Made by a program: the position numbers and the translations under genes
The notes under the pieces: generated by a model
Database searches by the model: none
Told to the model about the DNA's origin: nothing
Seen by the model: the letters and a program-made list of their open reading frames with translations, nothing else
Source: Kitasatospora sp. NBC_01246
GTDB taxonomy: Bacteria; Actinomycetota; Actinomycetes; Streptomycetales; Streptomycetaceae
Length of the DNA stretch: 64,000 nucleotides
Reading direction: 5' to 3'
NCBI RefSeq assembly: GCF_036226505.1
Contig: NZ_CP108484.1
Location: 1,736,001 to 1,800,000, forward strand
Shown: one piece after another, positions 5,683 to 27,970 of the stretch
Position numbering within the stretch: the first letter of the stretch is position 1
How the letters are laid out: every line of letters starts with the position of its first letter

Positions 5683-7629
5683 TCAGCCCGCCAGTACCTC
5701 GGTCAGCAGCCCGCCGACCAGCCGGACGCCGTCCTCGGTGAGGATCGACTCGGCGTGGAACTGCAGCGAGGCGAAGTGCGGGCCGCGCAGCGCGTGCACC
5801 TCGCCGGTGTCCGCGTCGCGGCTCACCTCGACCAGGCCGACGCCCTCGCACTCGACCTTGGCCTCGACGCTGCGGGCCGCGAAGGTGTTGTAGAAGCCCA
5901 CCCGCTCCCGGACGCCGAAGAGGTCGATCTCCCGCTGCACGCCCTGGTTCGGCGCCTCCCGGCGGACCAGCGGGAGGCCGAGCCGCAGGCCGAGCACCTG
6001 GTGGCTGAGGCAGACCGCGAAGAACGGCCGCCGCTCCCGGAGCAGCGTGTCGATCGTCGACCGCAGCCGCGCGATCTTGGGGTGGCCCGCGCCGCGCGGA
6101 TCTCCCGGGCCGGGGCCCATCACGACGAGGTCGTACCCGTCCGGCGCGTACGGCTCGTCGAACCGGCGGACCGTCACCGCGAGGCCGAGCGAGCGGAGCT
6201 GGTGGTCGATCATCGCGGTGAAGGTGTCCTCCGCGTCCACCACGAGCACCCGGCGACCGGTCAGGGCGGGCCTCGGCCGGGAGCGCGCGGACGCCGGTGC
6301 CAGCCAGAAGTCGGCGATGCCGGTGTTGCGCCGCTCCAGCGCGGCCCGGACGTCCGGGTGCGCGCCGTAGACGGCCGGGGCCTTGGCCGGGGCCCTGGCC
6401 GGGGTCAGGGCCGGGGTCGGCGCCGCCGGGCCGTCCGCCTGGAGGGCCGCGAGCAGGCCCGCCGCCTTCGCCCGGGTCTCGGCCACCTCCTGCTCGGGGT
6501 CGGAGTGGCGCACCAGGGTGGCACCCACCCCGATCCGGACCCGGCCCGCGTCGTCGATGTCGGCCGTGCGGATCAGGATCGACGAGTCCAGCGCGGGTCC
6601 GCCGTGCTCGTCGCGCCCGATCAGCGCGACCACCCCGCTGTAGTAGCCGCGCCCCTGCGGCTCGTACCGGCGGATGACCCGGCAGGCGCTCTCCAGCGGG
6701 CTGCCGGTGACGGTCGGGGCGAACAGCGTCTCGCGCAGGATCTCCCGCGGATCGCGGTCGGTGCGCCCCTCGATGAAGTACTCGGTGTGCGCCAGCCGCG
6801 CCATCTCCTTGAGGTACGGGCCCACCACCCGGCCGCCCTCCGCGCAGATCCGGGCCATCATCTTGAGTTCCTCGTCCACCACCATGTACAGCTCGTCGGC
6901 CTCCTTGCGGTCGGCCAGGAAGTCCATCACCCCGGGCAGGGTCGGGCCGGACTGCGGGTACCGGTAGGTGCCGCTGATCGGGTTCATCACGGCCTTGCCG
7001 CCGGCGAGGCTGAGGTGCCGCTCCGGGGTGGCGCCGACGAACGTACGGGCGCCGGTGTGCACGATGAAGGTCCAGTAGGCGCCCGACTCGCCCCGCACCA
7101 GCCGCCGGAAGAACGACAGCGCGCTGTGCGTGGTGTAGCCGGTGATGTCGGCGAGGAACGAGCGCTTGATGACGAAGTTCGCGCCCTCGCCCCGGCCGAT
7201 CTCGTCGCCGACGACCCTGCGCACCGTCCCGGCGTAGGTCTCGTCGTCCACGTCGAAGTGGCCGCCGGCCAGCGTGATCGGCACGTCCGGGAGCCGTCGC
7301 AGCACCTCGGCCAGCGGCAGCACGCCCTGGTCGGTGACGGTCATCGCGATCAGCGGCTCGCCGTCGTCGGCGCAGGCGTAGCCGCGCTCGGCGATCTGCC
7401 GGTAGGGGACGATCGCCAGCACCTCGTGACGGGCGTCCCCGGCGGCGGCCCCGGCGGGGACGGGGAGCTCGGCGAGCGTCCCCGGCGTCGACACCGTGCC
7501 GACCAGCACGTCCAGCGCGTCCGGCCCGGTCGACTCCGGGCGGTGGATGAGGGCGAAGGGCGGCGGCCGCAGCCCCAGGACGCGGTCCAGCAGGTCCACG
7601 GGGTAAGGCGCCGCCCCGGCCCCGGTCAT
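5683..7629 (-). CDS. phzE: PhzE-type 2-amino-2-desoxyisochorismate (ADIC) synthase
   Basis: 648 residues, close to the roughly 630 of PhzE. Residues 1-430 form a chorismate-utilising domain (TrpE/PabB fold: [62 protein letters not shown]). An Ala/Pro linker leads to a class-I glutamine amidotransferase with an intact triad: C540 (AVCLSHQ), H625 and E627 (QFHAES). It would aminate chorismate at C2 and, unlike anthranilate synthase, retain the enolpyruvyl group to give ADIC. Its ATG overlaps the phzD TGA (ATGA at 7626-7629). The amidotransferase end ([13 protein letters not shown]) looks complete. Anthranilate synthase is the alternative; the fusion order and adjacent PhzD favour ADIC synthase. 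Confidence 0.9.
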
Positions 7630-8300
7630 GCGCCGGCCTCCCCCGGGCCACCGGCCGCGACGGCGGCCGGCCGGAGCGCGGCGAGGACGTCGTCGGTGGT
7701 GACGACCACGGCGCAGCGCCGCGCCGCGTAGTCCAGGGCCAGCCGGTGGTACTCCTCGGAGAAGTCCGCGACGGCGTCCGCCACCAGGAACGGCTGGATG
7801 TCGTTGGTGAACGCCTCGACCGCGGAGATCAGCACCCCGACGTGCGCGTAGACGCCGCAGAGGACGAGCTGGTCGCGGCCCTGTTCGCGCATCCGGTCCA
7901 GCAGGCCGGAGCGGAAGAAGGCGCTGTACCGCCATTTGGTGAACACCCAGTCGGCCGGGGCCGGTTCGAGCGGCTCGACGACCTGCCGGTCGACCGGGTC
8001 GACCCGCATGCCCGGCCCCCAGAAGTCCTTCAACAGGCCGCGCTCCTCCTCGGTCATGCCACCGGGCTGGGCGGTGTAGGCGACCGGGACCCCCAGGGCG
8101 GCGCCGCGCTCGCGCAACCGGGCGGCGTTGCCGACCAGGTGGTCGCGGACGGCCGCGGGGAACGGCCGCAGGAAGTAGCGCTGCATGTCGTGCACGAGCA
8201 GCACCGCCCGGTCCGGGTCCACGGTCCACCGGGCGGTGTTGCCGGGCAGGTCGGCCGCGGTCGGCATCGGGTACGGCGCGATGGGGGGTATGCCCGCCAT
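7626..8300 (-). CDS. phzD: PhzD-type isochorismatase (forms DHHA from ADIC)
   Basis: 224 residues; ATG preceded by AGGAGAGG. The three catalytic residues known from Pseudomonas PhzD sit at the same numbers here: D38 (VHDMQRYF), Q78 (AQPGG) and K122 (FTKWRYSAF). The family motif [10 protein letters not shown] follows. It hydrolyses the vinyl ether of ADIC to trans-2,3-dihydro-3-hydroxyanthranilate (DHHA) and pyruvate. It is coupled to phzE by a 4-bp overlap and lies 230 bp downstream of the DAHP synthase. No aryl carrier domain is fused, so it is the stand-alone form rather than an EntB-type protein. Confidence 0.93.
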
Positions 8301-8530: not shown

Positions 8531-9745
8531 TCAGCCCTGGGCCGCGGCGGCGCCCACCGGGGTCGACCGGCCGGTCAGCCACCAGGCCGAGACCACGGAG
8601 AGGGCCTGGCCCGGGTTGAGCCGGGGGTCGCAGAAGCTCGTGTACTTGGCCCCGACCTCGTCGATCCGGGCTTCGCTCTGGACGCATTCGGTCACGTCGT
8701 CGGGAGTGGTCTCCAGGTGGAGCCCGCCCGCCGTGCCGCCGGCGTTGCGGACGGCGTGCTGGAACTCCCGCACCTCGCGGGAGATCTCCCGCACGAACCG
8801 GGTCTTGAGGCCGTCCGGCGTGCTGACGGTGTTGCCGTGCATCGGGTCGGTGAGCCAGATCACCGGGTGGCCCGCGGCCTTCACCGCCTCGACGAGGACG
8901 GGCAGCCGCCCGGCCACCGCCTCGGCCCCCATCCGGGCGATCAGGGTGAGCCGGCCCGGCTCGCGCCGGGGGTCGAGCCGCTCGCACAGGGCCAGCAGGT
9001 CGTCGACCGCCATGGTGGGACCGACCTTGCAGGCCACCGGGTTCATCACCTCGGCTAGCAGGGTGACGTGGGCGCCGTCGACCTGCCTGGTCCGCTCGCC
9101 GATCCACGGCCAGTGGGTGGAGGCGAGCAGCAGCCGTCCCTCGTCGTCCCGGCGCAGCATGGGGACTTCGTAGTCGAGCAGCAGTGCCTCGTGGCTCGTC
9201 CAGACGGGCGTCCCGAGGGAGAGGGGCCCGCCGCGGCTGCGCCAGCCCAGGTGTCCCATGACGTCGTAGGCGGTCTGGTAGCCCGTCAGCAGTCTCAACG
9301 GGTCGGGGCGCCGCAGCTCCGGGTCGGGCTCCGGGCTGTTGACCATGTGCCCCCGGTAGACCGGCAGTTCGACGTTCCCGACCCGTTCGGTGGGGTGGGA
9401 GCGGGGCTTGGCGAACTGTCCGGCGATCCGGCCGGCGCGGATCACCGGCTTGCAGGTGTCCAGTTGGAGCGCGCCCGCGAGCAGGTCGAGCACGCCGACC
9501 TTGCGGGCCACGTAGCCGGGGGTGCACTCGGCCGGGTCCTCCGCGCAGTCGCCCGCCTGCACCACGTGGGCTTCGCCCGCGGCGACCCGGGCCAGCAGCG
9601 CGCGCAGGGTAGAGACGTCCTCCGCCTCGACCAGTGCGGGGCGGGTCGCCAGTTCCTTCCGCACCTGGCGGACCAGCGCGGTGTCCTCCCACGGTGGTTG
9701 CTGCAACGCGCTTTCCAGTCGGATATCGAGCAGAGTACTTTCCAC
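8531..9745 (-). CDS. phzC: Type II DAHP synthase (PhzC-like, pathway-dedicated)
   Basis: 404 residues from the GTG at 9745, which has GGAG six bases upstream and reads [11 protein letters not shown]. An upstream in-frame GTG at 9790 is less likely. Class II signatures are clear: metal-binding C67 in [53 protein letters not shown], and [12 protein letters not shown] with SFCDPRLN. It condenses phosphoenolpyruvate and erythrose-4-phosphate to start the shikimate pathway. The short length lacks the N-terminal regulatory extension of housekeeping actinobacterial enzymes, typical of copies that boost chorismate supply for a secondary pathway. It is the first gene of the minus-strand phzC-phzD-phzE unit, divergent from the SDR gene. 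Confidence 0.92.
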
Positions 9746-10276
9746 CGATTTCTCCAAATCGCGAACGGGCGATGGGCGCGGTCGCCCCACGGCCGAGCAG
9801 GCGAGCGTCGTGCGCGGCTGTCAACGGAGCCGGAATTCGAATCCACACAGGCCCGGGGGCGCGGTCGCCGCACCGTCGGCGGGACCGGGGAACTTCTCGT
9901 TCGTCCTGGGTGAACGTCGATGGAACACGAGGGCTGTGGGCGCAGAGGTCGGGCCGGACCGCCCCACCGCGACGGTGGGCGCCGAACCGTCGGCGGCCTC
10001 CGCCACCGTCCAAATCATGGAACAGAACGGAGTGCCGGCCAACGTTCGTCATCGCACTTCGTCAGGTGACCGGCACTTCGTCAGGTGACCGCTACTCCGT
10101 CAGGTGCCGAATAGTCCATCAGGTCGCTGCGGGCACGTAGCACCGCCGGCGGCCGCACCGGTTCGAGGGGGCTCCGAAGCCGGCTCGACGAACTGAATCG
10201 CCATCAAATCATCGTGACAGCGGGAGGACAGGCCGACCTGGTGACGTCCGGACGGGGGCCTGCGAGACTTCGGGCC
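9746..10276. promoter_or_regulatory. Divergent phzC/SDR intergenic region
   Basis: A 531-bp non-coding stretch separates the starts of phzC (minus) and the SDR gene (plus). Short frames here lack the G/C third-position bias of this genome. It contains the four-copy 19-bp repeat array described separately, about 310 bp from phzC and 150 bp from the SDR gene. I cannot pick a confident -10/-35 pair for either direction. Confidence 0.6.
10054..10129. repeat. Four tandem 19-bp repeats, candidate operator array
   Basis: GCACTTCGTCAGGTGACCG occurs exactly twice (10054-10072, 10073-10091), followed by two diverged copies (10092-10110, 10111-10129). All four keep a TCAGGT core, so the cores recur at exact 19-bp spacing. 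Nineteen base pairs is not the 11- or 22-bp spacing of typical SARP heptamer repeats. A related single copy, GTCAGGTCGGCC, lies at 21893-21904 in the CAR/MFS intergenic region. The position between two divergent biosynthetic genes suggests cooperative regulator binding. Confidence 0.7.
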
Positions 10277-11044
10277 ATGAACAGCGACCTCCTCTCCGGC
10301 AGAATCGTCCTCATCACCGGCGCGAGCAGCGGCATCGGCGCCGCGGCGGCCCACGTGTTCGCCCGGGAGGGCGCCACCGTGGTGCTCACCGCCCGCCGGG
10401 AAGAACGCCTGGCCGCACTGACCGCCGAACTACGCGAAAAGGGAGCCCGCGCCGCGTACGTGGTCGGCGACGTATCCGTCGCCCGAGATGCCGCGAGGGC
10501 GGTCGAGTTCGCCGTGGCCGAATACGGGCGGCTCGACTCGGCCTTCAACAATGCGGGGATCGGCGGCGACCGCACCCCGCTGCACCTGATGTCGGACGAC
10601 GTCTACGACACCGTCATGGACACCAATGTGCGCGGCGTCTTCAACTGCCTGCGGTACGAGATAACGGCGATGCTGGAACAATCCGGCGGGGGCACCATCG
10701 TCAACAACAGCAGTGTGGGCGGCCTGGTGTCGATCCCCGCCGCCGCCCCCTACATCGCCTCGAAGCACGCGGTCATCGGCTTCACCAGGGCCGCCGCCGA
10801 CGAGTACGCCAAGCAGGGCATCCGGGTGAACGCGGTCGCCCCCGGAACCACCCGAAGCGAGATCACGGCCGACTGGTTCGGCCGCAATCCCGGCCTGGAG
10901 GATCTGGCCAACTCGCTGACGCCACAGGGGCGTACGGCGGCTCCGGAGGAGATCGCGGAGGCGGCGGCCTGGCTGCTGAGCGACCGCTGCCCGTTCCTGA
11001 CCGGCACCGTCCTGCCGGTGGACGGCGGCTTCGTCAACCGGTGA
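10277..11044 (+). CDS. Short-chain dehydrogenase/reductase (DHHA dehydrogenase or butyrolactone-pathway ketoreductase)
   Basis: 255 residues from ATG 10277; a GTG at 10214 would add 21 implausible residues. A classical SDR: cofactor motif TGASSGIG at residues 14-21, NNAG, the active-site serine in NNSSVGG, and Y159/K163 in YIASK. The C-terminal end LTGTVLPVDGGFVNR is typical. The basic residues after the first strand (TARREER) suggest NADP(H), not proof. Two roles fit the neighbours. It faces phzC, so it may oxidise DHHA to 3-hydroxyanthranilate as in benzoxazole antibiotic pathways. It also sits beside the AfsA gene, where SDRs reduce the butyrolactone side-chain ketone (BarS1/JadW2 type). 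I cannot separate these by reading. Confidence 0.85.
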   Translation: MNSDLLSGRIVLITGASSGIGAAAAHVFAREGATVVLTARREERLAALTAELREKGARAAYVVGDVSVARDAARAVEFAVAEYGRLDSAFNNAGIGGDRTPLHLMSDDVYDTVMDTNVRGVFNCLRYEITAMLEQSGGGTIVNNSSVGGLVSIPAAAPYIASKHAVIGFTRAAADEYAKQGIRVNAVAPGTTRSEITADWFGRNPGLEDLANSLTPQGRTAAPEEIAEAAAWLLSDRCPFLTGTVLPVDGGFVNR

Positions 11045-11074: not shown

Positions 11075-11977
11075 TCACCGCCGCAGACCGTTGAACTCGA
11101 CCCGGAAGGCCGGCTCCCCGCCCTGCGTGCCCGTGACCCGGACGGCGCACCGGGCGGGGTGGCCGGCCGGTGTCTCCTCCGCCTCGATCCAGCACGGCCG
11201 GTCGAACTCCACGTACCGCCGGAAGCTGGTGGCGACCCGCAGGGGCAGGAAGGACGACCGGCCCCGAAGGGCCTGCGCGGCCTGGGCCGCGGCCTCCAGC
11301 AGGGCCAGCCCCGGGACGTGGTCCACGGGGTGGTCGAAGAGCAGGTGGTTGTCGATGTCGTTGCGCAGCAGCCAGCGGTGCGGCCGGTCGCCCGGCGCGA
11401 GGGCGACGTCGGAGGCGCGCGGCCGGGCCACGAGGTCGGCGGCTATCGGCTCCGGTAACGGCCAGGCGCCCCAGCCGACCCCGAGGCCGTTTCCCCGCAC
11501 CCGCCGGTAGGCGGCGGGCGAGATCCAGCCGAACTCGGAGTCCGCCCGGGCCGCCACGACGCCGTCGCAGCGGATCAGGATGCCCATCCGCAGAGAGCTG
11601 ACGGGCCGTCGGTTCCGCACGGCGCCCGCCACGGTGACCCGTACGTCCAGCCTCGCGCTCCGGCCGCGTGGCACGCGGAAGTCCGGGTCGATCGTGTAGT
11701 CCAGGGTGCTCAACACGGTCTGATGGGTCAGCGGGACGCCGTACTCGGCGTGCGCGACGACCAGGCCGCTCTGCCGGATGGTCTGGGCGAGTATCCGCGG
11801 GTCGTACGGCAGGCCCACCTGCACGGCCGGCCACCGGACGCCGACCCCGAACTCGTCGGCCCCCAGCCGCTCCCAGCCGGTGACCAGGACGGACGTGCCC
11901 CGCCGCAGATGCGCGTAGGCGCCTACGAGAGCGGGCGAAGGAGTGGATGAACGTGGTGCGAGCGTGACGTCTTGCAA
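11075..11977 (-). CDS. AfsA-family gamma-butyrolactone biosynthesis protein
   Basis: 300 residues, starting at a TTG at 11977 with a G-rich Shine-Dalgarno (AAGGGGGGG) a few bases upstream. It has the two AfsA repeats (hotdog fold): the first includes HAEYGVPLTHQTVLSTLDY; the second has the hallmark DHVPGLALLEAAAQAA near residue 219, then a SFRRYVEFDRPCWIEAE segment. AfsA enzymes couple a beta-ketoacyl thioester to dihydroxyacetone phosphate, the first step to A-factor-type signals. It is divergent from the ArpA-like receptor, the usual arrangement, with a candidate receptor operator between them. Convergent with the SDR gene 30 bp away. Confidence 0.92.
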   Translation of the reverse strand: MQDVTLAPRSSTPSPALVGAYAHLRRGTSVLVTGWERLGADEFGVGVRWPAVQVGLPYDPRILAQTIRQSGLVVAHAEYGVPLTHQTVLSTLDYTIDPDFRVPRGRSARLDVRVTVAGAVRNRRPVSSLRMGILIRCDGVVAARADSEFGWISPAAYRRVRGNGLGVGWGAWPLPEPIAADLVARPRASDVALAPGDRPHRWLLRNDIDNHLLFDHPVDHVPGLALLEAAAQAAQALRGRSSFLPLRVATSFRRYVEFDRPCWIEAEETPAGHPARCAVRVTGTQGGEPAFRVEFNGLRR

Positions 11978-12028: not shown

Positions 12029-12052
12029 AAGTACCGGCTCTCCGGTCGGTTT
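12029..12052. promoter_or_regulatory. ARE-like butyrolactone-receptor operator
   Basis: AAGTACCGG-CTCT-CCGGTCGGTTT is an imperfect palindrome with ACCGG/CCGGT half-sites. It resembles the autoregulatory element consensus bound by ArpA/ScbR-type receptors but has a spacer about one base shorter. It lies about 52 bp from the AfsA start and 59 bp from the receptor start, so one bound receptor could control both divergent genes. Confidence 0.5.
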
Positions 12053-12110
12053 CGAACCATGAGCAAGTCTAGTTCAAGCAATGGTAAAGAGAATGCAGTG
12101 GAGGCATAAA

Positions 12111-12764
12111 GTGTCAAGGCAGGAGCGCGCGATCCATACCCGCCGGCTGATCCTGGAGGCCGCGGCCGAGATGTTCAACGAGCTCGGGTACGACGCCACC
12201 ACCATCGGCGGCCTCATCGAGCGCATCCAACTCACCCGCGGTGGCCTCTACTTCCACTTCACCACCAAGGAGCAGCTCGCCCGCGGCGTGCTGGCCGAGG
12301 CGGTGACCATGGAGGGGCTGGCCCCGCAGGCCTTCAAGCTGCAGGAGTGGGTGGACCTCGCCCTGCTGCTCGCCCACCGGCTGCCCCGGGAGCCGATGCT
12401 GAGCGCCGCGATCCGGCTGTCCGTGGACGTCAAGTCGCGCGGCCTGTTCGGCACCCGCTGGCCCGACTGGATCGAGGTGGGGCAGGGACTGCTGACCGAG
12501 GCGAAGGAGCGCGGCGAACTGCTCGCGCACGTCGACCCGACCGAGACCGCCCGGCTGTTCGTGGGGGCGTGGACCGGGGTCCAGCTGATCACCGAGACCC
12601 TGCCGGAGCGGACCCTCTCCCAGGAGATCTCGAACCTGTTCGCACTCGTCCTCCCCAATGTCGCCAGCGCCGGCGTGCTGGCCAGGCTGGACTCCTCCCC
12701 CTACCGCGCGAAGCGCCTCCTGGAGGAGGCCGGCCAGGCCGGGGCGCCGTCCCCGGTCGACTGA
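12111..12764 (+). CDS. ArpA/ScbR-like gamma-butyrolactone receptor (TetR family)
   Basis: 217 residues from the GTG at 12111, chosen because GGAGG stands eight bases upstream and because VSRQERAIHTRR matches the conserved N-terminus of these receptors. ATGs at 12081 and 12093 would extend it. The helix-turn-helix covers about residues 10-55, with the family motif TRGGLYFHFTTKEQLARGVL. The ligand-binding part keeps SAAIRLSVDVKSRGLFGTRWPDWIEV, with tryptophans typical of true butyrolactone receptors. Expected role: repress AfsA, itself and cluster genes until the signal binds. Pseudo-receptor function cannot be excluded. Confidence 0.88.
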   Translation: MSRQERAIHTRRLILEAAAEMFNELGYDATTIGGLIERIQLTRGGLYFHFTTKEQLARGVLAEAVTMEGLAPQAFKLQEWVDLALLLAHRLPREPMLSAAIRLSVDVKSRGLFGTRWPDWIEVGQGLLTEAKERGELLAHVDPTETARLFVGAWTGVQLITETLPERTLSQEISNLFALVLPNVASAGVLARLDSSPYRAKRLLEEAGQAGAPSPVD

Positions 12765-12893: not shown

Positions 12894-12920
12894 TATAAAT
12901 GAGAACAGGACAGCAGTCCT
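12894..12920 (+). promoter_or_regulatory. TATAAAT box and inverted repeat upstream of the first IS701-like gene
   Basis: A TATAAAT at 12894-12900 stands out in this GC-rich DNA as a likely -10 element. Seven bases after it is an inverted repeat, AGGAC-AGCA-GTCCT (12907-12920). The start codon of the downstream gene is at 13007. A very similar element, CAGGAC-N4-GTCC, precedes the second paralog, suggesting both share a regulator. Confidence 0.5.
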
Positions 12921-13006
12921 CTTTTGGGAGTCCGACGCGGACGACGCCGATGCGGGGCGGCGGTCCGTCCGGTCGGCTGGGGTGGCGGACCACGGGGGGA
13001 TCAACC

Positions 13007-14164
13007 ATGCGACACCTGCACCGATCCGTCGGCGCGACGGACGGCGAACCGGCCGCCGACACGGCGCTCGACCCCGAGCTCAGCGCCCAGTTGTTCGGCT
13101 CGCTGCGGCGCAGCGGCCAGCGGCTCAAGGCCGAGCAGTACGTCCGCGGCCTGCTCGCGCTGGAGGGGCGCAAGACCCTGCGCGGCATCGCGGCGCAGTT
13201 CGACGGCGCCGCGGCGCAGCAGAGCGTCCACCACTTCATCAGCGCGTCGCCCTGGGACTGGATGCCGGTACGGCACGCCCTGGCCCGCGAGGTGCAGCGG
13301 GCCCTGGCACCGCAGGCCTGGGTGATCAGACCGATCCTGATACCCAAGGCCGGCTCCCATTCAGTCGGCATCGACCAGCAACTGCTGCCGCTCGGACGGA
13401 TCGTCAACGGCCAGCACGCGGTGGGGGCCTGGCTGGCCTCCGGACACTGCGCCGTCCCCGTCGACTGGCAGCTGCGGCTCTCCGACCGTTGGCTGACCGA
13501 TCCGCTGCGGCAACGGGCGAGCGTTCCCGCCGACGCCGCGGTCGCCACCATCGAGGACTGCGTCCGGGCCGCGGTGGCCGACATCCGGGAGATCGGCGGG
13601 GTGCTGCGCGGGCCGGTCGTGGTGGACGTCGGGGAGGTGGACGCCGTGGCGGTCGCCCGCCACCTGGCGGCCCTGGGCGTCGCGTTCGTGGTGCGGGTCG
13701 GCCCGCAGGCCCAGCTCTGGCTCGACCGGACCGAACTGCCCAGCTACAGCGGCCGGGAGCACACCGTGGGCGAGCTCGCCGAGTCGCTCCCTCGGCTGCG
13801 CCGGCAGGTGAATCCGGGCGACGGCCCGACGACCGCGGTGGCGATCCCGGTGGTGACCTCGCCGGCCCGCGGGGAGCGGATGCTGCTGCTCGGCGAGTGG
13901 CGGCCGGCCGGGCGCCCGCGCCGGCGGCTCTGGCTCACCAACGCCGACGCGCCCTCCGTCCTCACCGCGCTGCGGCTCACCCGCCTGCCGGGCGTCGTCC
14001 TGCGGGACTTCACCGCGATCTCCGAGCGAGTGGGGGTACGGGACTTCGGCGGGCGGTCGTTCCCGGGCTGGCACCGGCACATCACGCTGGCGTCGGTCGC
14101 CCACCTGATCGCCACCCTGGAGAACCGGCGGCCGCTACTGCCCGGCAGCCGGGCCGGACGCTGA
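13007..14164 (+). CDS. Domesticated IS701-type transposase-like protein, copy 1 (degenerate active site)
   Basis: 385 residues from ATG 13007 (GGGGGGA seven bases upstream); two ATGs further up lack a ribosome site. The fold signature of IS701-family DDE transposases is present: AEQYVRGLLALEGRKTLRGI, HHFISASPWDW, IPKAGSHSVG, and FGGRSFPGWHRHITLASVAH at the end. From memory, active members read DDTGFPKKG where this protein reads RPILIPKAG (residues 108-116), losing the first catalytic Asp. D207 (VVVDVGE) is kept. The position expected to hold the catalytic Glu is L332 (VVLRDF). No terminal inverted repeats or target duplications are seen. It is probably a fixed cellular gene, perhaps DNA-binding. 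It follows the ArpA-like receptor in the same direction. Confidence 0.8.
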   Translation: MRHLHRSVGATDGEPAADTALDPELSAQLFGSLRRSGQRLKAEQYVRGLLALEGRKTLRGIAAQFDGAAAQQSVHHFISASPWDWMPVRHALAREVQRALAPQAWVIRPILIPKAGSHSVGIDQQLLPLGRIVNGQHAVGAWLASGHCAVPVDWQLRLSDRWLTDPLRQRASVPADAAVATIEDCVRAAVADIREIGGVLRGPVVVDVGEVDAVAVARHLAALGVAFVVRVGPQAQLWLDRTELPSYSGREHTVGELAESLPRLRRQVNPGDGPTTAVAIPVVTSPARGERMLLLGEWRPAGRPRRRLWLTNADAPSVLTALRLTRLPGVVLRDFTAISERVGVRDFGGRSFPGWHRHITLASVAHLIATLENRRPLLPGSRAGR

Positions 14165-14184
14165 CCCACCGGCGCAGGCTTCAC

Positions 14185-14197
14185 AGGACTACTGTCC
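14185..14197. promoter_or_regulatory. Inverted repeat AGGAC-N4-GTCC upstream of the second IS701-like gene
   Basis: AGGAC-TACT-GTCC, preceded by C, matches the element before copy 1 (12907-12920). It lies 21 bp after the copy 1 stop codon. It is followed by TAATGT, a possible -10. It starts a 559-bp gap (14165-14723) that otherwise holds a small possible ORF and tandem repeats. Confidence 0.45.
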
Positions 14198-14317
14198 GGT
14201 AATGTGACACTCTCACTCCTCGTGCCATGGCATCGCCTCCGATCGCTCCTTACTGTCTGGAGCAGCGCACGAGCACGTTCACGACCGCCACGGGAGACCG
14301 AACAGGAGTGTGCACAC

Positions 14318-14431
14318 GTGGAGTTCACCTTCTTCGGACTTCCCTGGCGGCGCTTCGGCAGGGGCCCGGCACGGGCCGTGTCCGCAGGACAGGACGGTCG
14401 TCCGCTCAGCCGTTGTGCCTCCCGCCCCTGA
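14318..14431 (+). CDS. Possible 37-residue small ORF
   Basis: A GTG at 14318 has AGGAG nine bases upstream (14304-14308). It opens a 37-codon frame beginning MEFTFFGLPWRRFGRG and ending SRCASRP. It is basic and aromatic-rich with one Cys. It lies between the two IS701-like genes, downstream of the 14185 element. The ribosome site is the main support; no homolog is known to me. It could be a leader peptide or a chance frame. Confidence 0.3.
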   Translation: MEFTFFGLPWRRFGRGPARAVSAGQDGRPLSRCASRP

Positions 14432-14550
14432 TCGAGCGCGGACCGATCGGCTCCCGCACTGAGGACAGGGACGCCGCACCGCCAAGAAGCCGCTCCCCCA
14501 GTCGCGGCAGGGCCCGGCGACGGCCGGTCCCGCTTCCGACCCTCACCCCG

Positions 14551-14618
14551 ACCCGCGCCGCCCTGACCCGCGCCGACCCGCGCCGCCCTGACCCGCGCCG
14601 ACCCGCGCCGCCCCGACC
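14551..14618. repeat. 25-bp tandem repeat, about 2.7 copies
   Basis: A 25-bp GC-only-type unit beginning ACCCGCGCCGCCCTGACC runs 14551-14575 and 14576-14600, with a partial copy to 14618. A run of short CACCCGGC-type repeats follows near 14634-14660. It is non-coding spacer upstream of IS701-like copy 2, best explained by slippage. Its length could vary between strains. Confidence 0.6.
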
Positions 14619-14723
14619 GACGCTCCCGATCCACCCGGCCACCCGGCCACCCGGCCACCGCGAGGCCGACCCCGCCGCCGCCGTCCGGCGCCTCCCCCCG
14701 AACACCACGACCACGGAGACGAC

Positions 14724-16202
14724 TTGACCTCTCAGACGTTGGCACAGCGACGGCGCACCCAGGCTCCGGTCGGCGACAACGACCGGTCGAAGCCCTCCGC
14801 CCGCCCCCTGCGCCCCACCGGATTCCCCTCTTCCGTCCCGGCCCCCATTCCCGCCCCCATCCCGCCTGCGGCCGCCTCTCCGTGCCCGGCGCCGGCCGGT
14901 CCGCAGGGCTCCGCCTTCCCGGCCCGGCTCGCGCCCGAAGGGCCGTCCGTGGCCGCCGAGCCGTCCGGACCGGGCCCGGCCCGCCATCCCCGCACACCGT
15001 TCCCGCCCGGCGCCCACGACGTCCTGCTCACCGAGCTCTGCTCGATCCTGTTCACCTCGCTCTCCCGCAGCGACCAGTGCCGCAAGGGCATGCAGTACCT
15101 GCGCGGACTGCTGGAGACCGAGGGGCGCAAGTCGATCCGCAACATCGCGGCGCTGCTCGGCAAGCCGGCCTCGGAGCAGAACCTGCACCACTTCATCTGC
15201 AGTTCGACCTGGGACTGGATCCCCATCCGCCGGGCGCTGGCCCACTACCTGGCCGGCGCGGCGGCCCCCCAGGCGTGGGTGGTGCAGCCGATGATCATCC
15301 CCAAGACGGGGCAGCACTCGGTCGGCGTCGAACGGCACTTCTTCCCGACCCTCGGGCAGGTGCTGAACGCCCAGCACGCCATCGGCGTCTGGGCGGCCTC
15401 GGAGGAGCTGAGCACCCCGGTCAACTGGCGCCTGCACCTGCCCGAGGCCTGGCTCAAGGACGATCTGCGGCGCAGTCAGGTGTCGATCCCGGACGAGGCC
15501 GGGGTGGAGACCCTCGGCGAGTGCGTGACCGAGGCCTGCCTGGAGACCACCACGGGCTGGGGGCTGCCGGTCCGGCCCGTGGTGCTCGACATCGGTGAGT
15601 CACAGGCCATAACGATCTTCGGGAAGCTGCACGCCCACGGGGTGCCGCTGCTCGCCCGGGTCGGCGGCGACCTCCGGCTCTCCGTACTGGACCAGGCCCT
15701 GCCCGCCTCGGGGAGCAGGCCGCAGCCGGCCCTGCGCATCATGAGCCTGGCCAAGGACCTGCGCCGGCTCGTCCCCGGCCGGGAGCACGGCCGGGAGCAC
15801 GGTCCGCACACGGCCCCCCGGGCGGTACCGGCCGCCACCGTCCGGGTCGGCCTGCCCACGCCGTCCGCGCCGTCCGCACCGGGCACACCGACCGCACCGG
15901 GCACACCGGGCAATCCAGGCGCTCCGAGTGGTGAACTCCTGCTGCTGGGCATCGGTGAGGAGGGCGGGCACTGGCCCGCGGAGCTCTGGCTGACCAATCT
16001 GACCGCCGTGCCACCGGCCACCCTGGTCCGGCTCAGCCGGCTCACCGGAAAGGTCGACCGGGACTTCACGGAGATCGCGGACCGGGTGGGCATCCGCGAC
16101 TTCACCGGGCGCTCCTTCAGCGGCTGGCACCGCCACGTCACGCTGGCCTCGGCCGCCCACGCGGTCGTCGCCCTCGCCGACCGGCGCGAGCGGCCCGCCT
16201 GA
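14724..16202 (+). CDS. Domesticated IS701-type transposase-like protein, copy 2 (degenerate active site)
   Basis: 492 residues from a TTG at 14724 with GGAG six bases upstream; homology to copy 1 needs a start before about 15010, and no good ATG exists. The first 90 residues are Pro/Ala-rich and absent from copy 1. The core is clearly paralogous: GMQYLRGLLETEGRKSIRNI, HHFICSSTWDW, IPKTGQHSVG, FTGRSFSGWHRHVTLASAAH. Where active IS701 enzymes have DDTGFPKKG it reads QPMIIPKTG (Q188-P189), so the first Asp is gone; D289 (VVLDIGE) remains; the expected Glu aligns with D445. A Pro/Thr/Gly insert lies near residues 370-400. No inverted ends are visible. Likely immobile and recruited together with copy 1. 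Confidence 0.78.
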   Translation: MTSQTLAQRRRTQAPVGDNDRSKPSARPLRPTGFPSSVPAPIPAPIPPAAASPCPAPAGPQGSAFPARLAPEGPSVAAEPSGPGPARHPRTPFPPGAHDVLLTELCSILFTSLSRSDQCRKGMQYLRGLLETEGRKSIRNIAALLGKPASEQNLHHFICSSTWDWIPIRRALAHYLAGAAAPQAWVVQPMIIPKTGQHSVGVERHFFPTLGQVLNAQHAIGVWAASEELSTPVNWRLHLPEAWLKDDLRRSQVSIPDEAGVETLGECVTEACLETTTGWGLPVRPVVLDIGESQAITIFGKLHAHGVPLLARVGGDLRLSVLDQALPASGSRPQPALRIMSLAKDLRRLVPGREHGREHGPHTAPRAVPAATVRVGLPTPSAPSAPGTPTAPGTPGNPGAPSGELLLLGIGEEGGHWPAELWLTNLTAVPPATLVRLSRLTGKVDRDFTEIADRVGIRDFTGRSFSGWHRHVTLASAAHAVVALADRRERPA

Positions 16203-16267: not shown

Positions 16268-16981
16268 TCAGCAGCAGGACAGCGCGTCGCAGGGCTGCGC
16301 CGCCCGCCGCCCGCCGCCCTCGCCCCACTCCGCGCCGGCCGCCCGCTCGCCGCCCTCCGGCGGCTCCGCACAGCTGCCCTCCGGAACGATCCCGGCCCGC
16401 GCCTCCGCCGTCGCGAGCTGCGGCAGCATCAACCGCCAGAACGGCGTGACCGCCTGACGCGAGTGCCACTGGGGGTCGCGCCGCCCGAGCACCTCCAGCC
16501 CGGCGACGACAGCGGTGATCGCGGCCACGGCGTCGTCGAGCACGATGTCGGCGGCCAGGCTGCCCTGGGCCCTGGCCACGGTCAGCATCAGCTGGACCCA
16601 GTCCTGCCACTGCTGCCACAGGTCGGCACCGCCCGGCCAGGTGGCGTCGCTGCCGAGGCAGAACCCGGCCCGCAGCACCGCGTCGGTGGAGAGCCGCCGG
16701 GCCAGCAGGTGCGAGGTGTCGACGAGCAGCTGGAGCGGTACGGGGTGCCGCAGTGGAACGTTCCCGGTGATGTGCAGCAGGGTTTCCGCGGCGGCCGATT
16801 CGACCGCCTCGCCGAGCGCCCGCTTGTTCCCGAAGTGGAAATGCAGCGCACCGTGGCTGAGACCGGCCCGGACACAGATCTGGGTTATGGAGGATTCCGC
16901 GAATCCCGATCGGGCGAAGGTCTCCGCGGCAGAACGGATCAGTTCCTGCCGGGTGCGGACGGCACGATTCTGCTTGGCCAT
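16268..16981 (-). CDS. TetR-family regulator (butyrolactone receptor-like / pseudo-receptor candidate)
   Basis: 237 residues from ATG 16981. The N-terminal helix-turn-helix (RTRQELIRSAAETFARSGFAESSITQICVR read in two parts, then LSHGALHFHFGNKRALGEAV) resembles ArpA/ScbR relatives. The C-terminal domain has GSDATWPGGADLWQQWQDWV where receptors have the Trp-rich ligand pocket, and a low-complexity Gly/Glu tail ending DALSCC. Together with the receptor at 12111 it gives the common pair of one true receptor plus one pseudo-receptor that senses antibiotics or controls the pathway late. Which is which needs binding tests. It faces a 506-bp gap to the methyltransferase stop. Confidence 0.82.
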   Translation of the reverse strand: MAKQNRAVRTRQELIRSAAETFARSGFAESSITQICVRAGLSHGALHFHFGNKRALGEAVESAAAETLLHITGNVPLRHPVPLQLLVDTSHLLARRLSTDAVLRAGFCLGSDATWPGGADLWQQWQDWVQLMLTVARAQGSLAADIVLDDAVAAITAVVAGLEVLGRRDPQWHSRQAVTPFWRLMLPQLATAEARAGIVPEGSCAEPPEGGERAAGAEWGEGGGRRAAQPCDALSCC

Positions 16982-17487: not shown

Positions 17488-18198
17488 TCAGCGTTCCAGC
17501 GGGCGGATCTCGAAGAGCTTGTAGGTGACGTCCACACCCGCCAGCTGCCGGTCGGCGCTGCCCAGCATCGTCAGCGAGCTCCCCGCCTCGGCGGCGAGCT
17601 GGGCGATCCGGGTGGCGTCACCGAAGCTGTTGAAGGTGACCAGGGCCCGGCCGCCGGGCAGCACCCGGTCGTGCACCTGGGCGAGGTAGCGGCCGAGGGC
17701 GCTGTAGCCGCGGTCGAAGATCGCCCACTCGACGTCCTGCTTGAACTCGAAGTCCTTCGGCGCCTCGAAGACGCTGCAGTTCCAGAAGACGGTGTCGAAG
17801 CGCTCCTCGGGGCCGAGCGCGTCGAACACGTCGCTGCGCAGCACCCGGACCCGGTCGGCGACGGCGTGCCGTGCGGCGTTGCGGGCGGCACTGTCGACCG
17901 CGGTGTCGGTGATGTCGGTGGCGGTCACCCGCGCACAGCCGTGCAGGGCCGCCCAGACCGCGGTGACGCCGGCCCCGCAGCCGATCTCCAGGAAGCTGCC
18001 ACCGGCCGGGTAGGGGATCGCGCCGGTGTACCACTCGGTGCCGGTGCCCGGCCGCGGCTCGTAGGTGCCGGGGATCAAGTCCCACTCCAGGCCGAGGAGT
18101 TCGAAGGTGGTCGGCTCGGTCTCGACCGGGCCCAGCTGCTCGACGAGACGGCGCCCGAGATCGTAGCGCTCCTCGAACTTCGCGGATGTCTGTTCCAT
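17488..18198 (-). CDS. Class I SAM-dependent methyltransferase
   Basis: 236 residues, ATG at 18198. SAM-binding motif I is FLEIGCGAG (residues 69-77), followed by an acidic TATDI and a SDVFD motif. Motif IV reads WNCSVFEAP (N140-C-S-V) where PrmC/MTS-type N-methyltransferases have (N/D)PP(Y/F), so the class resembles amino-methylating enzymes but the signature is degenerate. It lies 97 bp downstream of the carboxylic acid reductase on the same strand and likely shares its transcript. A tailoring role on the cluster product, N- or O-methylation of an aminohydroxybenzoate, is inferred only from context. Confidence 0.8.
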   Translation of the reverse strand: MEQTSAKFEERYDLGRRLVEQLGPVETEPTTFELLGLEWDLIPGTYEPRPGTGTEWYTGAIPYPAGGSFLEIGCGAGVTAVWAALHGCARVTATDITDTAVDSAARNAARHAVADRVRVLRSDVFDALGPEERFDTVFWNCSVFEAPKDFEFKQDVEWAIFDRGYSALGRYLAQVHDRVLPGGRALVTFNSFGDATRIAQLAAEAGSSLTMLGSADRQLAGVDVTYKLFEIRPLER

Positions 18199-18295: not shown

Positions 18296-21200
18296 TCACC
18301 AGCCGAGGCGCTCGCCGAGCAGCTTCAGGTCGGCGGCGTACTTGGCGATGAAGGCGGGCGAGAGCTGCGGGATGTCCCGCGCCGGTCCGATCCCGGCGGC
18401 CCGGACGGCGGCCCGGAACCGGTCGGAGGGGATGACCGACCCGGGCACCGCCTCCTCCGGCCGCTTGAACGCGTGGACCAGCGGCAGCGCCGAGTGCTGT
18501 CGCTGCCCCTCGGGCAGGGCCCGCATCGCGGCCTCGAACCGGACGAACCAGTCGTCGTAGTCGGCCACCCGCTCGATCCGGTGCCCGGCCTCGACCAGCC
18601 AGTCCACGAAGCTGTCGAGCGACACCCCGTCGTCGTTCGGGTTGACCAGGCTGAAGGTCCGGTAGCCCTCGGTGCCCTGGCCGCCCAGGGCCACCACCGC
18701 GGCGGCGGTGAAGTCCACCGGCAGGCCGTCGTAGTGCGCCCGCCGGCGGTTCCCCCGGTCGTCGGTGCGGTAGAAGGAGTGCGGCGCGATGCCGGTGGCG
18801 ATCACGCTGAGCAGCAGCCGGGTGAACTGGTCCGGGACGTTCAGCTGCCCGGCGTAGCGGCTGTGCGCGAGGATCATGTTGGACCGGAACGTGGTGACCG
18901 GGAGTCCGCACCGGTCGTGCGCCTCGCGCAGCAGGACCTCGCCGGCCCACTTGCTGGTCGCGTAACCGCCCGCGTAGCCCTCGTCGGTCTGCTGCACCGG
19001 GAGGGCGGTCCTGACGTCCGAGTCCTCGTCCAGCGCCCCGCCGGCCCGGGAGGTGGCGACCGCCACGCTGGAGATGTAGGTGAAGGGCTTGATCCGGCCG
19101 GTGAGCCCCAGCCGGATCAGCTCGGCCGTGCCGACGACGTTCGCCTCGAACAGGTGGTGGTACGGGAGGACGTGGTTCACCAGGGCGCCGGCGTGGACGA
19201 TCACGTCCACCTCCTCGGAGAGCCGCTTCCAGGTCGTGTCGTCCAGGCCCAGCCGCGGCTCCGCGATGTCGCCCGCCAGGACTTCCAGGTGCCCGTCGGC
19301 CAGCTCCCGGTAGCGGCGCACCAGTTCGTCGTCGCCGCTGACGAAGGCCTCGTCGAGGCGCCCGCGGGCCGCGTCCGCGTCCCGCCCGCGCACCACGCAG
19401 ATCACCGTCCCGCCGACCGGGGCCAGCCGCTCCAGCCACTCCAGGCAGAGGAAGTGGCCGAGGTAGCCGCTCGCGCCGGTCAGCAGCACCGTCCGGGGCT
19501 CGCCCGAAGGCTGCGGCAGGGTCCGGGCGTCGGCGATGGTCCGGTCGTCGAGGAACTTGTCCAGCGTGAGGTCCCCGGCGCGGACCCGCGTGCCGTCCTC
19601 GCCGTGCACCGAGGCGAAGGTGACCCCCCGCAGGCCCGTCGCGCGCTTGGTCTCGATGTAGCCGGCCAGTTGACGCAGGTCGTAGGCGGGGCTGATGACG
19701 GTGTCGACGGGGACCCGTACGCCGAAGATGTCGTGGAGCAGGTTGGAGAAGGAGACGGCGGTCAGCGAGTCCCCGCCGATCTCCCGGAAGCGCGCGGCGG
19801 GGCCGACCTCGACGGTGGAGCCCGCGAGCAGCGCCCGGGTGGCCCGCTGGACCGTCTCCAGCACCGGCCGGTCGGCGCCCGTACGGCGCAGCTCCAGCAG
19901 CTCCCGGCTCTCCCGGGCGGCTATGTCGGCGTACAGCTCCTCCAGTTCGCGGCCGTAGCGTTCCTGGAGCCGGGGCCGCAGCAGCTTGCGGTGGTCCGAG
20001 AGCAGGCCGTTCGCCTGGTCGAAGGGCTCGGCCTCGATCAGGACGTCGCGCGGGATCTCGTAGGAGTTCAGTCCGGCCTCGCGGGCGATCTGCTGAAACG
20101 ATTCGCTCAGCAGCTGGCGGAGGTGTTCCCGGTCATCGCCGAACTGGTCGAGGGCGGCCGGCGTGGGCACGACCACGGCCAGCAGATAGGACCGCTCGCT
20201 GTTGCCGTACACGAAGATCTGCCGGACCAGCGGGCTCGCCGCGAACTCGGACTCCAGTCGCGCGGTCGCCACGAACTCGCCCTGGGAGAGCTTCAGCACG
20301 CTCTTGCGGCGGTCCAGGATGGTGAACCGGTCCGGCCCGAGCTCCGCGACGATGTCGCCGGTCCGGTAGTAGCCGTCCTCGTCGATGATCTCCGCCGACA
20401 GCTCGGGCTGCTTGTAGTAGCCGGGCACGACGGCCTCGGACTTCAGCAGCAACTCCCCCCGCGGGTGCGGTGAGTCGGTCCTGTAGTAGCCGAGTTCGGG
20501 CACGTCGGCCAGCTTGTAGTCGATCACCGGTGGGCGGAGCAGCTTGTCGTCGACGGAGACGGCGGCGGCCTCGGTGGAGCCGTAGATGATGGTCAGCTCG
20601 AAGCCCAGCAAGGCCTCGACGAAGACCCGTAGTTCGGCCGAGAGCGGGGCGGAGCCGCAGCTGGCCCAGGCGAGCCGGCCGCCCAGGAGGTTCTCCCGCA
20701 GCTCGGCCAGGACCTCGGCCTCGACCGCCCGCCGGTCGGCGCCGGCGAGCTCCCGCCGGTCCAGCTCGCTCTGGTACTTCTGGTAGAGCATCTCGCAGAC
20801 CCGTGGCACCAGCGACAGTTCGGTGGGCCGGACCAGTGCGATGTCCTCGAAGAAGGTCGACATGTCGCTGCTGGCCGTGAAGTAGCTGATCCCGCTGCGG
20901 GCGAGGGTGTTCTTCAGCGACGAGTGCCCGGCGACATGGCTCATCGGCATGTAGTTGATGTTGATCGCGAGGAGGTCGGAGAACAGCTTCGACCAGGCCC
21001 CGCCCCACATCGCGCTCAGCAGGGTGTCGGTGTACACCGCGCCCTTGGGCGTTCCGGTGCTGCCCGAGGTGTAGATCAGCATGGCCAGCGGGTCGTCGCC
21101 GTCCTCGGGGACGAACAACGGCGCGTCGGGCAGCGCGGATCCGCGGCCGACGACGTCCGCCAGGGTGTCGATCGCCACCTCGCGGCCGGCCTCTGCCAGG

Positions 21201-21709
21201 CGCTCGCGCGCGGCGGTGAACTTCTCGAACTGGTCGGTGACGTCCGGGTGGTAGTCGAAGACCACCAGCCGGCGGGCCGAGGGGTTAGCCAGCAGCAGTT
21301 CGACCGCGACGTGCAGCCGCTCGATGCTCGCCGCGACGACGAAGGGCTCGGTCTCCTCGACGATCGAGGCGAGTTGCGCCAGCGGGGCGCTGGTCTGCAG
21401 CGGGACGCTGACCACGCCGAGGTAGTTGCAGGCGAGGTCGACCACCGCGTAGTCGCCGCTGGCGAAGCCGAGCAGGGCGATCCGCTCGCCCGGTTCCAGC
21501 GGATGCTCCGGGTGCCGGTGCCATTCCGCGGCCACCGCGCGGACCCGCCCCCAGAGTTCGCTGTAACTGGTCGTTTCGTAGTGCGCCAGGAGGCGGAGCG
21601 AAACGCGGCCGGTGTCGGCGTCCCGCACGAACTCCTTCGCGCGTTCACCGATTGCGGGCCGGTCCGTGTGGCGCTGCATGACTTTTGCTAACGTTTGCGC
21701 AAGCCGCAT
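18296..21709 (-). CDS. Carboxylic acid reductase (adenylation-PCP-thioester reductase)
   Basis: 1137 residues from ATG 21709, chosen for its GGAG seven bases upstream; an ATG at 21724 lacks one. The three CAR domains are intact. Adenylation domain: [14 protein letters not shown] near residue 210 and YGSTEAAAV. Carrier domain: phosphopantetheine serine S648 in [10 protein letters not shown]. Reductase domain: TGASGYLG near residue 740 with catalytic Y916 and K920 in YATSK. CARs use ATP and NADPH to reduce an acid, often aromatic, to the aldehyde, and need a phosphopantetheinyl transferase from elsewhere. Length matches Nocardia/Mycobacterium CARs (about 1170). Next to DHHA-forming genes the likely substrate is a 3-hydroxyanthranilate-type acid, an inference. 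Confidence 0.93.
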
Positions 21710-21724
21710 TCTGGGTCTCCGCAT

Positions 21725-26421: not shown

Positions 26422-27249
26422 ATGGCCCAGCCCACCGAACAGCCCGCCCGTAAGCAGTCCCAGCGCGTCAGCGCCCGCGAGCGGATCCAGGAGGCGCAGC
26501 TGCGCGAGCGCGCCGCCGCCAAGCGCCGGCAGCGGATCGTCGTCGGCGTCTCGATCGTCGCCGTCCTCGCCCTGGCCGGCGGTACCGCGCTGGCGATCAA
26601 CGCGGCGGGCGGCGACGACCCGTCCAGCGCGTCCGCCGCCGCCGACCCGACCGCGCTGGTCGTCCCGGCCAACACCACCGGCCCCGACGGCACCGTGATC
26701 GTGTACGGCAAGCCGGACGCCGCCCACACCCTCCAGGTGTTCGAGGACTTCCGCTGCCCGGTCTGCAAGAGCTTCGAGGCGACCAACGGCGACACCGTCA
26801 GGAAGCTGGCGGACGACGGCACCGTCAGGGTGGAGTACCACCTGGCGGCGTTCCTCGACAAGAACCTCGGCGGCAAGGGCTCGCGCACCGCGCTCGCAGC
26901 CGTCGGCGCGGCGCTCAACGAGGGCGTCGACAAGTTCAAGCAGTTCCACGACGTGCTGTACGCCAACCAGCCCGACGAGCGCGAGGACGGCTTCGGCGAC
27001 GTCAACCACCTGCTGGACCTGGCCGGCCAGGTGCCCGGTCTGAAGACGGACGCCTTCGTCAAGGCGGTGACCGACCGCACCTACGCCCCGTGGGCGAAGA
27101 AGGTCGCGGACGCCTTCAACGACAGCGGGGTGACGGGCACGCCGACGGTCAAGCTGGACGGCAAGCCGATCACCCTGTTCAGCGGGAACCGCGCCACCAC
27201 GCCGGAGCAGTTCACCGCCCAGGTGAAGCAGGCCGCGGGCTTGCAGTGA
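26422..27249 (+). CDS. DsbA-like membrane-anchored thiol oxidoreductase
   Basis: 275 residues, ATG 26422. A charged cytoplasmic N-terminus (ARERIQEAQLRERAAAKRRQ) precedes one membrane helix at residues 40-58, giving an extracytoplasmic thioredoxin fold. The active site is C112-P-V-C115 in EDFRCPVCKSFE, with the cis-proline loop TGTPTVKLDG near residue 236. DsbA-like proteins insert disulfides into exported proteins. The VKOR gene begins 64 bp downstream on the same strand and is the expected reoxidation partner. Confidence 0.92.
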   Translation: MAQPTEQPARKQSQRVSARERIQEAQLRERAAAKRRQRIVVGVSIVAVLALAGGTALAINAAGGDDPSSASAAADPTALVVPANTTGPDGTVIVYGKPDAAHTLQVFEDFRCPVCKSFEATNGDTVRKLADDGTVRVEYHLAAFLDKNLGGKGSRTALAAVGAALNEGVDKFKQFHDVLYANQPDEREDGFGDVNHLLDLAGQVPGLKTDAFVKAVTDRTYAPWAKKVADAFNDSGVTGTPTVKLDGKPITLFSGNRATTPEQFTAQVKQAAGLQ

Positions 27250-27313
27250 GCACCACCGGCCCGGCCGACCACCCGGCCGGGCCGGCCCTTCACACCCACC
27301 GGAGTGCTCCGCG

Positions 27314-27970
27314 ATGACCGCCCCGACTGCCGTGAACCCGCCCCGCTCCCGCTCCGCCGCCTCCCCGCCGCACGGCACGCCGATCGGCGCCGGCCGGGCG
27401 TTCGCCCTGTTCGTGTTCCTCGGCGGACTCCTCGGCCTCGCCGCCTCGGCCGTCCTCACCTTCGACAAGCTCCGCCTCCTGGAGAACCCGTCCTACGTCC
27501 CCAGTTGCAACATCAACCCGGTGATCAGCTGCGGGTCGGTGATGCGCACCGAGCAGGCGGAGGTCTTCGGCTTCCCGAACCCGCTGCTCGGCCTGGCCGC
27601 CTTCGGTGCCGTCGCCGCGGTCGGCGCCGGGCTGCTGGCCGGCGCCGCCTACCGGCGCTGGTTCTGGCTGGCCCTGCAGGCCGGCACCCTGGCCGGCGTG
27701 GTCTTCGTGCACTGGCTGATCGACCAGGCGCTGTACGACATCGGCGCGCTCTGCCCGTACTGCGTGGTGGTCTGGGCCACGGTGGTGCCGCTCTGCTGGT
27801 ACACCACGCTGCACAACCTGCGCTCCGGGGTGATACCCGTCGGTCCCCGGCTGCGACCGGTGGTCCGCGAGGCCGCCCGCTACCACTGGGCCCTGCCGGT
27901 GCTGTGGGCCGCGGTGATCGCCCTGCTGGTCCTCAACCGGTTCTGGTCCTACTGGAGCACCCTGCTCTGA
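27314..27970 (+). CDS. Vitamin K epoxide reductase (VKOR) family protein
   Basis: 218 residues from ATG 27314, GGAG nine bases upstream. It has four to five membrane helices. The loop cysteine pair C65/C73 (CNINPVISC) and the active-site C147-P-Y-C150 are both present, as in bacterial VKORs that reoxidise DsbA using menaquinone. With the preceding DsbA-like gene it forms a disulfide-bond relay. The RHS and LamG proteins next door are large exported proteins and could be clients, but core secreted proteins are equally likely. Confidence 0.93.
   Translation: MTAPTAVNPPRSRSAASPPHGTPIGAGRAFALFVFLGGLLGLAASAVLTFDKLRLLENPSYVPSCNINPVISCGSVMRTEQAEVFGFPNPLLGLAAFGAVAAVGAGLLAGAAYRRWFWLALQAGTLAGVVFVHWLIDQALYDIGALCPYCVVVWATVVPLCWYTTLHNLRSGVIPVGPRLRPVVREAARYHWALPVLWAAVIALLVLNRFWSYWSTLL

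Follow-up and report, generated by a model that had tools for sequence, protein, structure and literature searches.

Degenerate IS701-type transposase-like genes within a butyrolactone-associated biosynthetic cluster of Kitasatospora

The 64,000-nucleotide stretch of Kitasatospora sp. NBC_01246 analysed here (contig NZ_CP108484.1, positions 1,736,001 to 1,800,000; hereafter the window) carries two genes, P1 and P2, whose products resemble IS701-family transposases. The pair sits between two genes for ScbR-like receptors and adjoins a gene for ScbA.

13007 to 14164, forward strand: P1, degenerate IS701-like protein of 385 residues (ATG start at 13007), in which R108-P109-I110 replaces DDT, D207 is kept and L332 replaces the Glu
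14724 to 16202, forward strand: P2, degenerate IS701-like protein of at most 492 residues (TTG start at 14724), in which Q-P-M replaces DDT, D289 is kept and D445 replaces the Glu

Both proteins pass the cut-off of 150 bits for the IS701 transposase model (NCBIfam NF033540), with 276.3 bits for P1 and 294.1 bits for P2, and both also pass the cut-off for Pfam DDE_5 (PF13546). They are 42-43% identical to one another. The first ~95 residues of P2 are rich in Pro and Ala and unaligned, so that its true start is uncertain. The 8.93-Mb host genome holds four IS701 relatives, namely one intact protein (L005), P1, P2 and a third degenerate protein. When aligned to L005, in which the sites read (A)VDDTGFPK, VADAAYG and RWRIEHDYRELK, P1 has VIRPILIPK, VVDVGEV and L332 at the equivalent positions, and P2 has VVQPMIIPK, VLDIGES and D445. 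By analogy with the EDT motif of Tn5, we take the catalytic first Asp to be the second D of DDT; this residue aligns with P109 in P1. The DDE triad is therefore broken in both proteins, reading P109/D207/L332 in P1 and Pro, D289 and D445 in P2. These are the residues named in the original prediction, which was made from the sequence alone, and alignment to the intact protein restores a DDE triad in neither. Between the two genes (14540-14660) there is a run of short G+C-rich tandem repeats (GACCCGCGCCG).

To place the two proteins, an alignment built from the three degenerate proteins was used to scan 84,980 species genomes, giving 80 loci, mostly in Streptomyces and Kitasatospora and more rarely in Kutzneria, Longimycelium, Kibdelosporangium, Microtetraspora, Microbispora, Micromonospora and Sphaerimonospora. 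Together with loci from the same genus and from plasmids, this provided 169 distinct proteins for alignment, which split with a support of 0.98 into 27 proteins on the canonical side and 142 degenerate ones. The degenerate family thus comprises at least 142 sampled proteins and spans several actinomycete families. Every one of the 142 lacks an intact triad, through loss of the first Asp or of another part of it, and the loss in P1 and P2 is thus beyond chance. The DDT position reads R-P-M or similar in most degenerate proteins, the second Asp is kept in 132 of the 150 first-pass degenerates, and the third catalytic position is D, E, A, R, G or another residue; in two members (L158 and L189) the catalytic first position is an Asp and the Glu is lost. 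A few relatives have a stop codon within the gene. With the canonical proteins as root, the degenerates fall into a single clade, although the support for this node is only 0.67. In a search at family level, 75 of 101 genomes had matches to P1, and many of these matches were canonical. The predicted tandem pair of paralogs is real and diverged, and the picture is wider than proposed, with both proteins belonging to this large family. P1 and P2 are ancient paralogs, and a recent tandem duplication can be rejected, since their common ancestor takes in 107 sequences of the tree.

The hallmarks of an insertion sequence are missing. Around each gene, and around the pair, a search for terminal inverted repeats gave only GC-rich matches at chance level, the best inverted 20-mers in the flanks of P1 and P2 scoring 15 and 16, as in shuffled sequence; this bears out the claim that the genes have no inverted ends. 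By comparison, canonical copies from the same genus have 20-bp ends such as CTAGTAGTGCTTTGTTAGGT, and in the flanks of 16 of the 27 the best inverted 20-mer scores 18-20, a near-perfect repeat. Across all 142 degenerate genes the distribution of inverted matches is the same as for shuffled flanks. The canonical end consensus lies near 13 of 27 canonical genes and none of the 142 degenerate genes, and is absent from the 64-kb window. No further copies of P1 or P2 were found among the four IS701 members of the host genome, and one canonical control has seven copies in its genome (G065). While canonical neighbours differ from copy to copy, most degenerate genes share neighbourhoods; the scattered copies that would have spoken for mobile elements were not seen. 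None of the phage records encodes a relative of P1. The block surrounding the pair aligns with the corresponding block of relatives and, without recognisable ends, the boundary of an element cannot be set. P1 and P2 resemble IS701-family transposases (NF033540/PF13546) in their homology over the whole length and in their N- and C-terminal motifs, and differ from them in the broken triad, the absence of terminal inverted repeats and their occurrence as single copies in conserved clusters.

Although sequence searches against solved structures gave no credible relative, a fold search did. The best solved match to the AlphaFold2 model of P1 (predicted local distance difference test, pLDDT, 89.2; predicted template-modelling score, pTM, 0.89) is the Tn5 transposase bound to its end DNA (PDB 1muh, Foldseek E 8.5e-11), which aligns over 336 residues with a root-mean-square deviation of 4.3 Å (Z 23.9, P1 residues 16-384); the Tn5 inhibitor (PDB 1b7e) is second to it with Z 16.2. 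The structure prediction called for in the original prediction thus returns a full-length Tn5-type transposase fold, and the match runs from the N-terminal DNA-binding domain to the C-terminus. With the reservation that there are only 11 distinct canonical sequences to compare, the N-terminal domain is about as conserved in the degenerate proteins (2.70 bits per column) as in the canonical ones (2.80), whereas conservation is relaxed around the second Asp (1.98 against 2.67). The net charge of the N-terminal domain is +4.9 in the degenerate and +2.1 in the canonical proteins. Unlike the Tn5 inhibitor, which is truncated at its N-terminus and acts on its own element, P1 and P2 are each encoded by a gene of their own and keep the N-terminal domain intact; identity to the Tn5 proteins is 11-14%.

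The genes that surround the pair are as follows.

5683 to 7650 (start approximate, longest open reading frame to 8229), reverse strand: PhzE-like 2-amino-2-deoxyisochorismate (ADIC)/anthranilate synthase, with Chorismate_bind and GATase matches
7626 to 8300, reverse strand: PhzD-like isochorismatase (PF00857, 132 bits)
8531 to 9790, reverse strand: PhzC-like class II 3-deoxy-D-arabino-heptulosonate 7-phosphate (DAHP) synthase (PF01474, 421 bits)
10214 to 11044, forward strand: short-chain dehydrogenase/reductase (SDR) oxidoreductase
11075 to 11977, reverse strand: ScbA/AfsA-like gamma-butyrolactone synthase (NF041195, 287.8 bits)
12081 to 12764, forward strand: ScbR-like gamma-butyrolactone receptor (NF041196, 192.9 bits)
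16268 to 16981, reverse strand: second ScbR-like receptor, possible pseudo-receptor (NF041196, 160.8 bits, just over the cut-off of 150)
17488 to 18198, reverse strand: S-adenosylmethionine-dependent methyltransferase
18296 to 21724, reverse strand: carboxylic acid reductase (CAR; NF041592, 1749 bits)

The butyrolactone locus of the original prediction is present, as ScbA and ScbR, and a whole biosynthetic cluster extends around the pair. By established pathways, its gene set would give 3-hydroxyanthranilate-type products via dihydrohydroxyanthranilate, as for the limazepines (PMC5958127).

A search for the same pair beside butyrolactone genes elsewhere found it in five other streptomycetes, S. 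lushanensis (L011), S. ruber (L012), S. lanatus (L013), S. pacificus (L014) and Streptomyces sp. DH37 (L016), with ScbA just upstream in four of them. The ratio of nonsynonymous to synonymous substitution rates (dN/dS, Nei-Gojobori, a crude estimate at high G+C) between the window and S. lushanensis comes to 0.29 (P1) and 0.30 (P2). These values are comparable with those of ScbR (0.21) and CAR (0.24); SDR has 0.14 and ScbA 0.52. For the closest pairs in the family it is below 0.5, with a maximum of 0.70. The values of ~0.3 indicate that P1 and P2 are under purifying selection.

Three short conserved elements, for which no strand is assigned, lie upstream of these genes.

12030 to 12053: conserved element between ScbA and ScbR, AGTACCGG...TCGGTTTC, which is related to the P1 operator and may be autoregulatory
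12902 to 12925: palindromic candidate operator upstream of P1, consensus GAAACAGGACnnnnGTCCTGTTTC, present in all six P1 loci
14180 to 14203: candidate operator upstream of P2, CAACAGGACTACCGTCCGGTAAC, conserved in relatives

The candidate operator of P1 directly follows a TATA box in all six loci (TATAAA at 12894-12899 in the window), and that of P2 is directly followed, in several relatives, by a -35-like TTGACA. The sequence AGGACTRCTGTCC has exactly two matches in the host genome, and these are the two candidate operators. With a leave-one-out matrix built from the other five loci, the P1 site is the top hit in each of the six. The P2 site is the next best in the window, S. ruber, S. lanatus and S. 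pacificus, is ranked lower in S. lushanensis and Streptomyces sp. DH37, and is the best hit in a locus that lacks P1 (L017). Both candidate operators resemble the ScbA-ScbR element, which the P1-operator matrix also picks in S. lushanensis, S. ruber and Streptomyces sp. DH37. This pattern would fit with both genes being controlled by the butyrolactone receptor.

By investigating genes within 9 kb of each family member we found that regulators cluster around the degenerate genes. Gamma-butyrolactone receptors are near 35 of the 142 degenerate genes (11 of 45 clusters at 60% identity), AfsA near 31, PucR-like regulators near 40 and Streptomyces antibiotic regulatory proteins (SARPs) near 31, while none of these is near any of the 27 canonical genes. 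Taking butyrolactone receptors, SARPs and PucR-like regulators together, 87/142 degenerate genes (21/45 clusters at 60% identity) and 0/27 canonical genes have one nearby. Chorismate-pathway genes are near 64 degenerate genes and one canonical gene. When the comparison is restricted to loci of the same genus, picked by similarity to P1 alone, 14 of 50 degenerate and 0 of 26 canonical genes have a receptor nearby (p=0.0016). The third degenerate paralog of the host genome (L009) also adjoins an ScbA-ScbR pair, as does, in another genome, a second, independent tandem pair made of different degenerate lineages (L149:8368-11245); one match in that other genome holds an in-frame TGA. An S. exfoliatus plasmid, annotated independently by NCBI, has the order transposase-SARP-ScbR-ScbA, and in two other plasmid clusters genes annotated as 'transposase' overlap fabI or maltokinase genes by 4 bp.

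Some branches have recurring neighbourhoods of their own. In ~40 loci a gene for a GAF-PucR regulator is convergent with the degenerate transposase gene (e.g. L018:11206-13251), forming a two-gene module. The subfamily of L046, L048, L053, L054, L057 and L074 adjoins genes for 1-deoxy-D-xylulose 5-phosphate synthase, LytB and polyprenyl synthase together with a LuxR-type regulator, which suggests that it belongs to terpenoid clusters. The conserved neighbours of the FDEVVFPKNG subfamily (L187, L188, L192, L194 and L195, members at ~9-11 kb) are genes for an NTP-transferase, GlgX and an epimerase-like protein.

The clade-wide loss of catalysis, the lost ends, the selection, the conserved position beside butyrolactone genes and the conserved operators provide good support for P1 and P2 being domesticated IS701-type transposases, which would have lost cleavage while keeping the Tn5-like fold and its N-terminal DNA-binding domain. 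The original prediction had suggested that selection keeps P1 and P2 for a role in the cell, possibly a regulatory one. The conserved pair, its promoters, the purifying selection, the clade-wide loss of catalysis and the linkage to regulators all speak for the role; that it is regulatory we infer. A DNA-binding regulatory function in the cluster, under butyrolactone control, would seem the most likely mechanism, and we regard it as reasonably probable. ScbR, perhaps along with the second receptor, would bind the related palindromes and repress P1 and P2, and accumulation of butyrolactone would lift this repression. Homo- or heterodimers of P1 and P2 might then bind the promoters of the DAHP synthase/isochorismatase/ADIC synthase/CAR cluster and set its transcription. 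The proteins would share their position in the cluster and apparently related operators with the ScbR pseudo-receptors and SARPs of butyrolactone islands, though the protein folds are unrelated.

Several points weigh against such a function. The candidate operators mark P1 and P2 as regulated genes, not as regulators. The operator motif, when sought upstream of the whole family, was found only in the ScbR-P1-P2 subclade and so supplies no family-wide target site. Both the second Asp and the Glu are kept in ~38 of the 150 first-pass degenerates. Members of the FDEVVFPKNG subfamily lie in glycogen/NDP-sugar operons without butyrolactone-receptor, SARP or PucR-like regulators, and function may therefore not be cluster regulation in every branch. 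The canonical controls are few (27) and all from one genus, and the linkage figure is inflated because biosynthetic clusters carry many regulators anyway.

The main rival is that the proteins were domesticated for something other than regulation, as an RNase-H-fold assembly factor, a nucleic-acid-binding cofactor or an unrecognised pathway enzyme. The 4-bp overlaps with biosynthetic genes in some clusters, the widely kept second Asp and the frequent chorismate-pathway neighbours would all be consistent with this. The linkage to regulators is, however, at least as strong, and it is the N-terminal DNA-binding domain that is constrained as in active transposases; we consider this explanation rather unlikely. 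Alternatively, P1 and P2 could inhibit active IS701 elements in the manner of the Tn5 inhibitor, whose fold they share, by blocking transposon ends or dimerising with the active transposase, and there is an intact IS701 copy in the same genome on which to act. P1 and P2 are, however, only 27-32% identical to that transposase, nothing resembling its ends is present in the window, and the linkage to antibiotic clusters would be unexplained; we think this improbable. Decaying remnants of IS701 insertions, present in the cluster by chance, might account for the lost catalytic residues and ends and for the occasional internal stop, but pseudogenes would not be expected to keep the pair and its promoters in five other species, a dN/dS of ~0.3 and open frames despite a clade-wide loss, and not even remnant repeats are found; selection and synteny largely refute this explanation and we consider it very unlikely. 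Mobilisation of the cluster in trans by the active site of another transposase, for which one could cite the presence of such clusters on linear plasmids, is the least credible, as ends are found neither beside the genes nor elsewhere in the window.

If P1 and P2 are indeed regulators, the family might represent a class of bacterial transcription factors that has so far gone unrecognised, with a single origin from an IS701 transposase and a wide distribution in actinomycetes, adding a layer to butyrolactone- and SARP-linked control of secondary metabolism; on this broader proposal we find the evidence evenly balanced. Such a class would have been hidden because databases name its members transposases, and automatic annotation as IS701 transposases leads cluster mining to discard them as mobile DNA. 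Many silent antibiotic clusters would then carry an unused switch, open to overexpression or deletion. Bacteria, in which the domestication of transposases for gene control is rarely shown though well known in eukaryotes, would also offer a clear example of it, with the broken family and its intact relatives both at hand for comparison. The plant transcription factors FHY3/FAR1 (PMC13306707) are an analogy in principle only: there too a transposase lineage is reused as a DNA-binding protein, but it is Mutator-like rather than IS701 and its function has been demonstrated, whereas that of P1 and P2 is proposed.

Among open-licence PMC papers, searches for transposase-like Streptomyces regulators, for domesticated transposases with butyrolactone receptors and through cluster tables did not turn up an account of the family, though one may exist elsewhere. 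Nor is a gene of this kind mentioned in passages retrieved by term from papers on six clusters, those for paulomycin, marfuraquinocin, limazepine, scleric acid, endophenazine and lomofungin. In S. kebangsaanensis, gene_3265 near the phenazine genes is listed as 'Transposase' (1101 nt) in a published cluster table (PMC5712208), in a passage that gives it no role and with an anthranilate synthase in the same cluster, and is possibly a member of the degenerate family.

Elsewhere in the window, 28456-35754 encodes a 2432-residue protein with RHS repeat and DUF6443 matches, and adjoining genes for a DsbA-like thioredoxin and a VKOR protein lie at 26422-27970.

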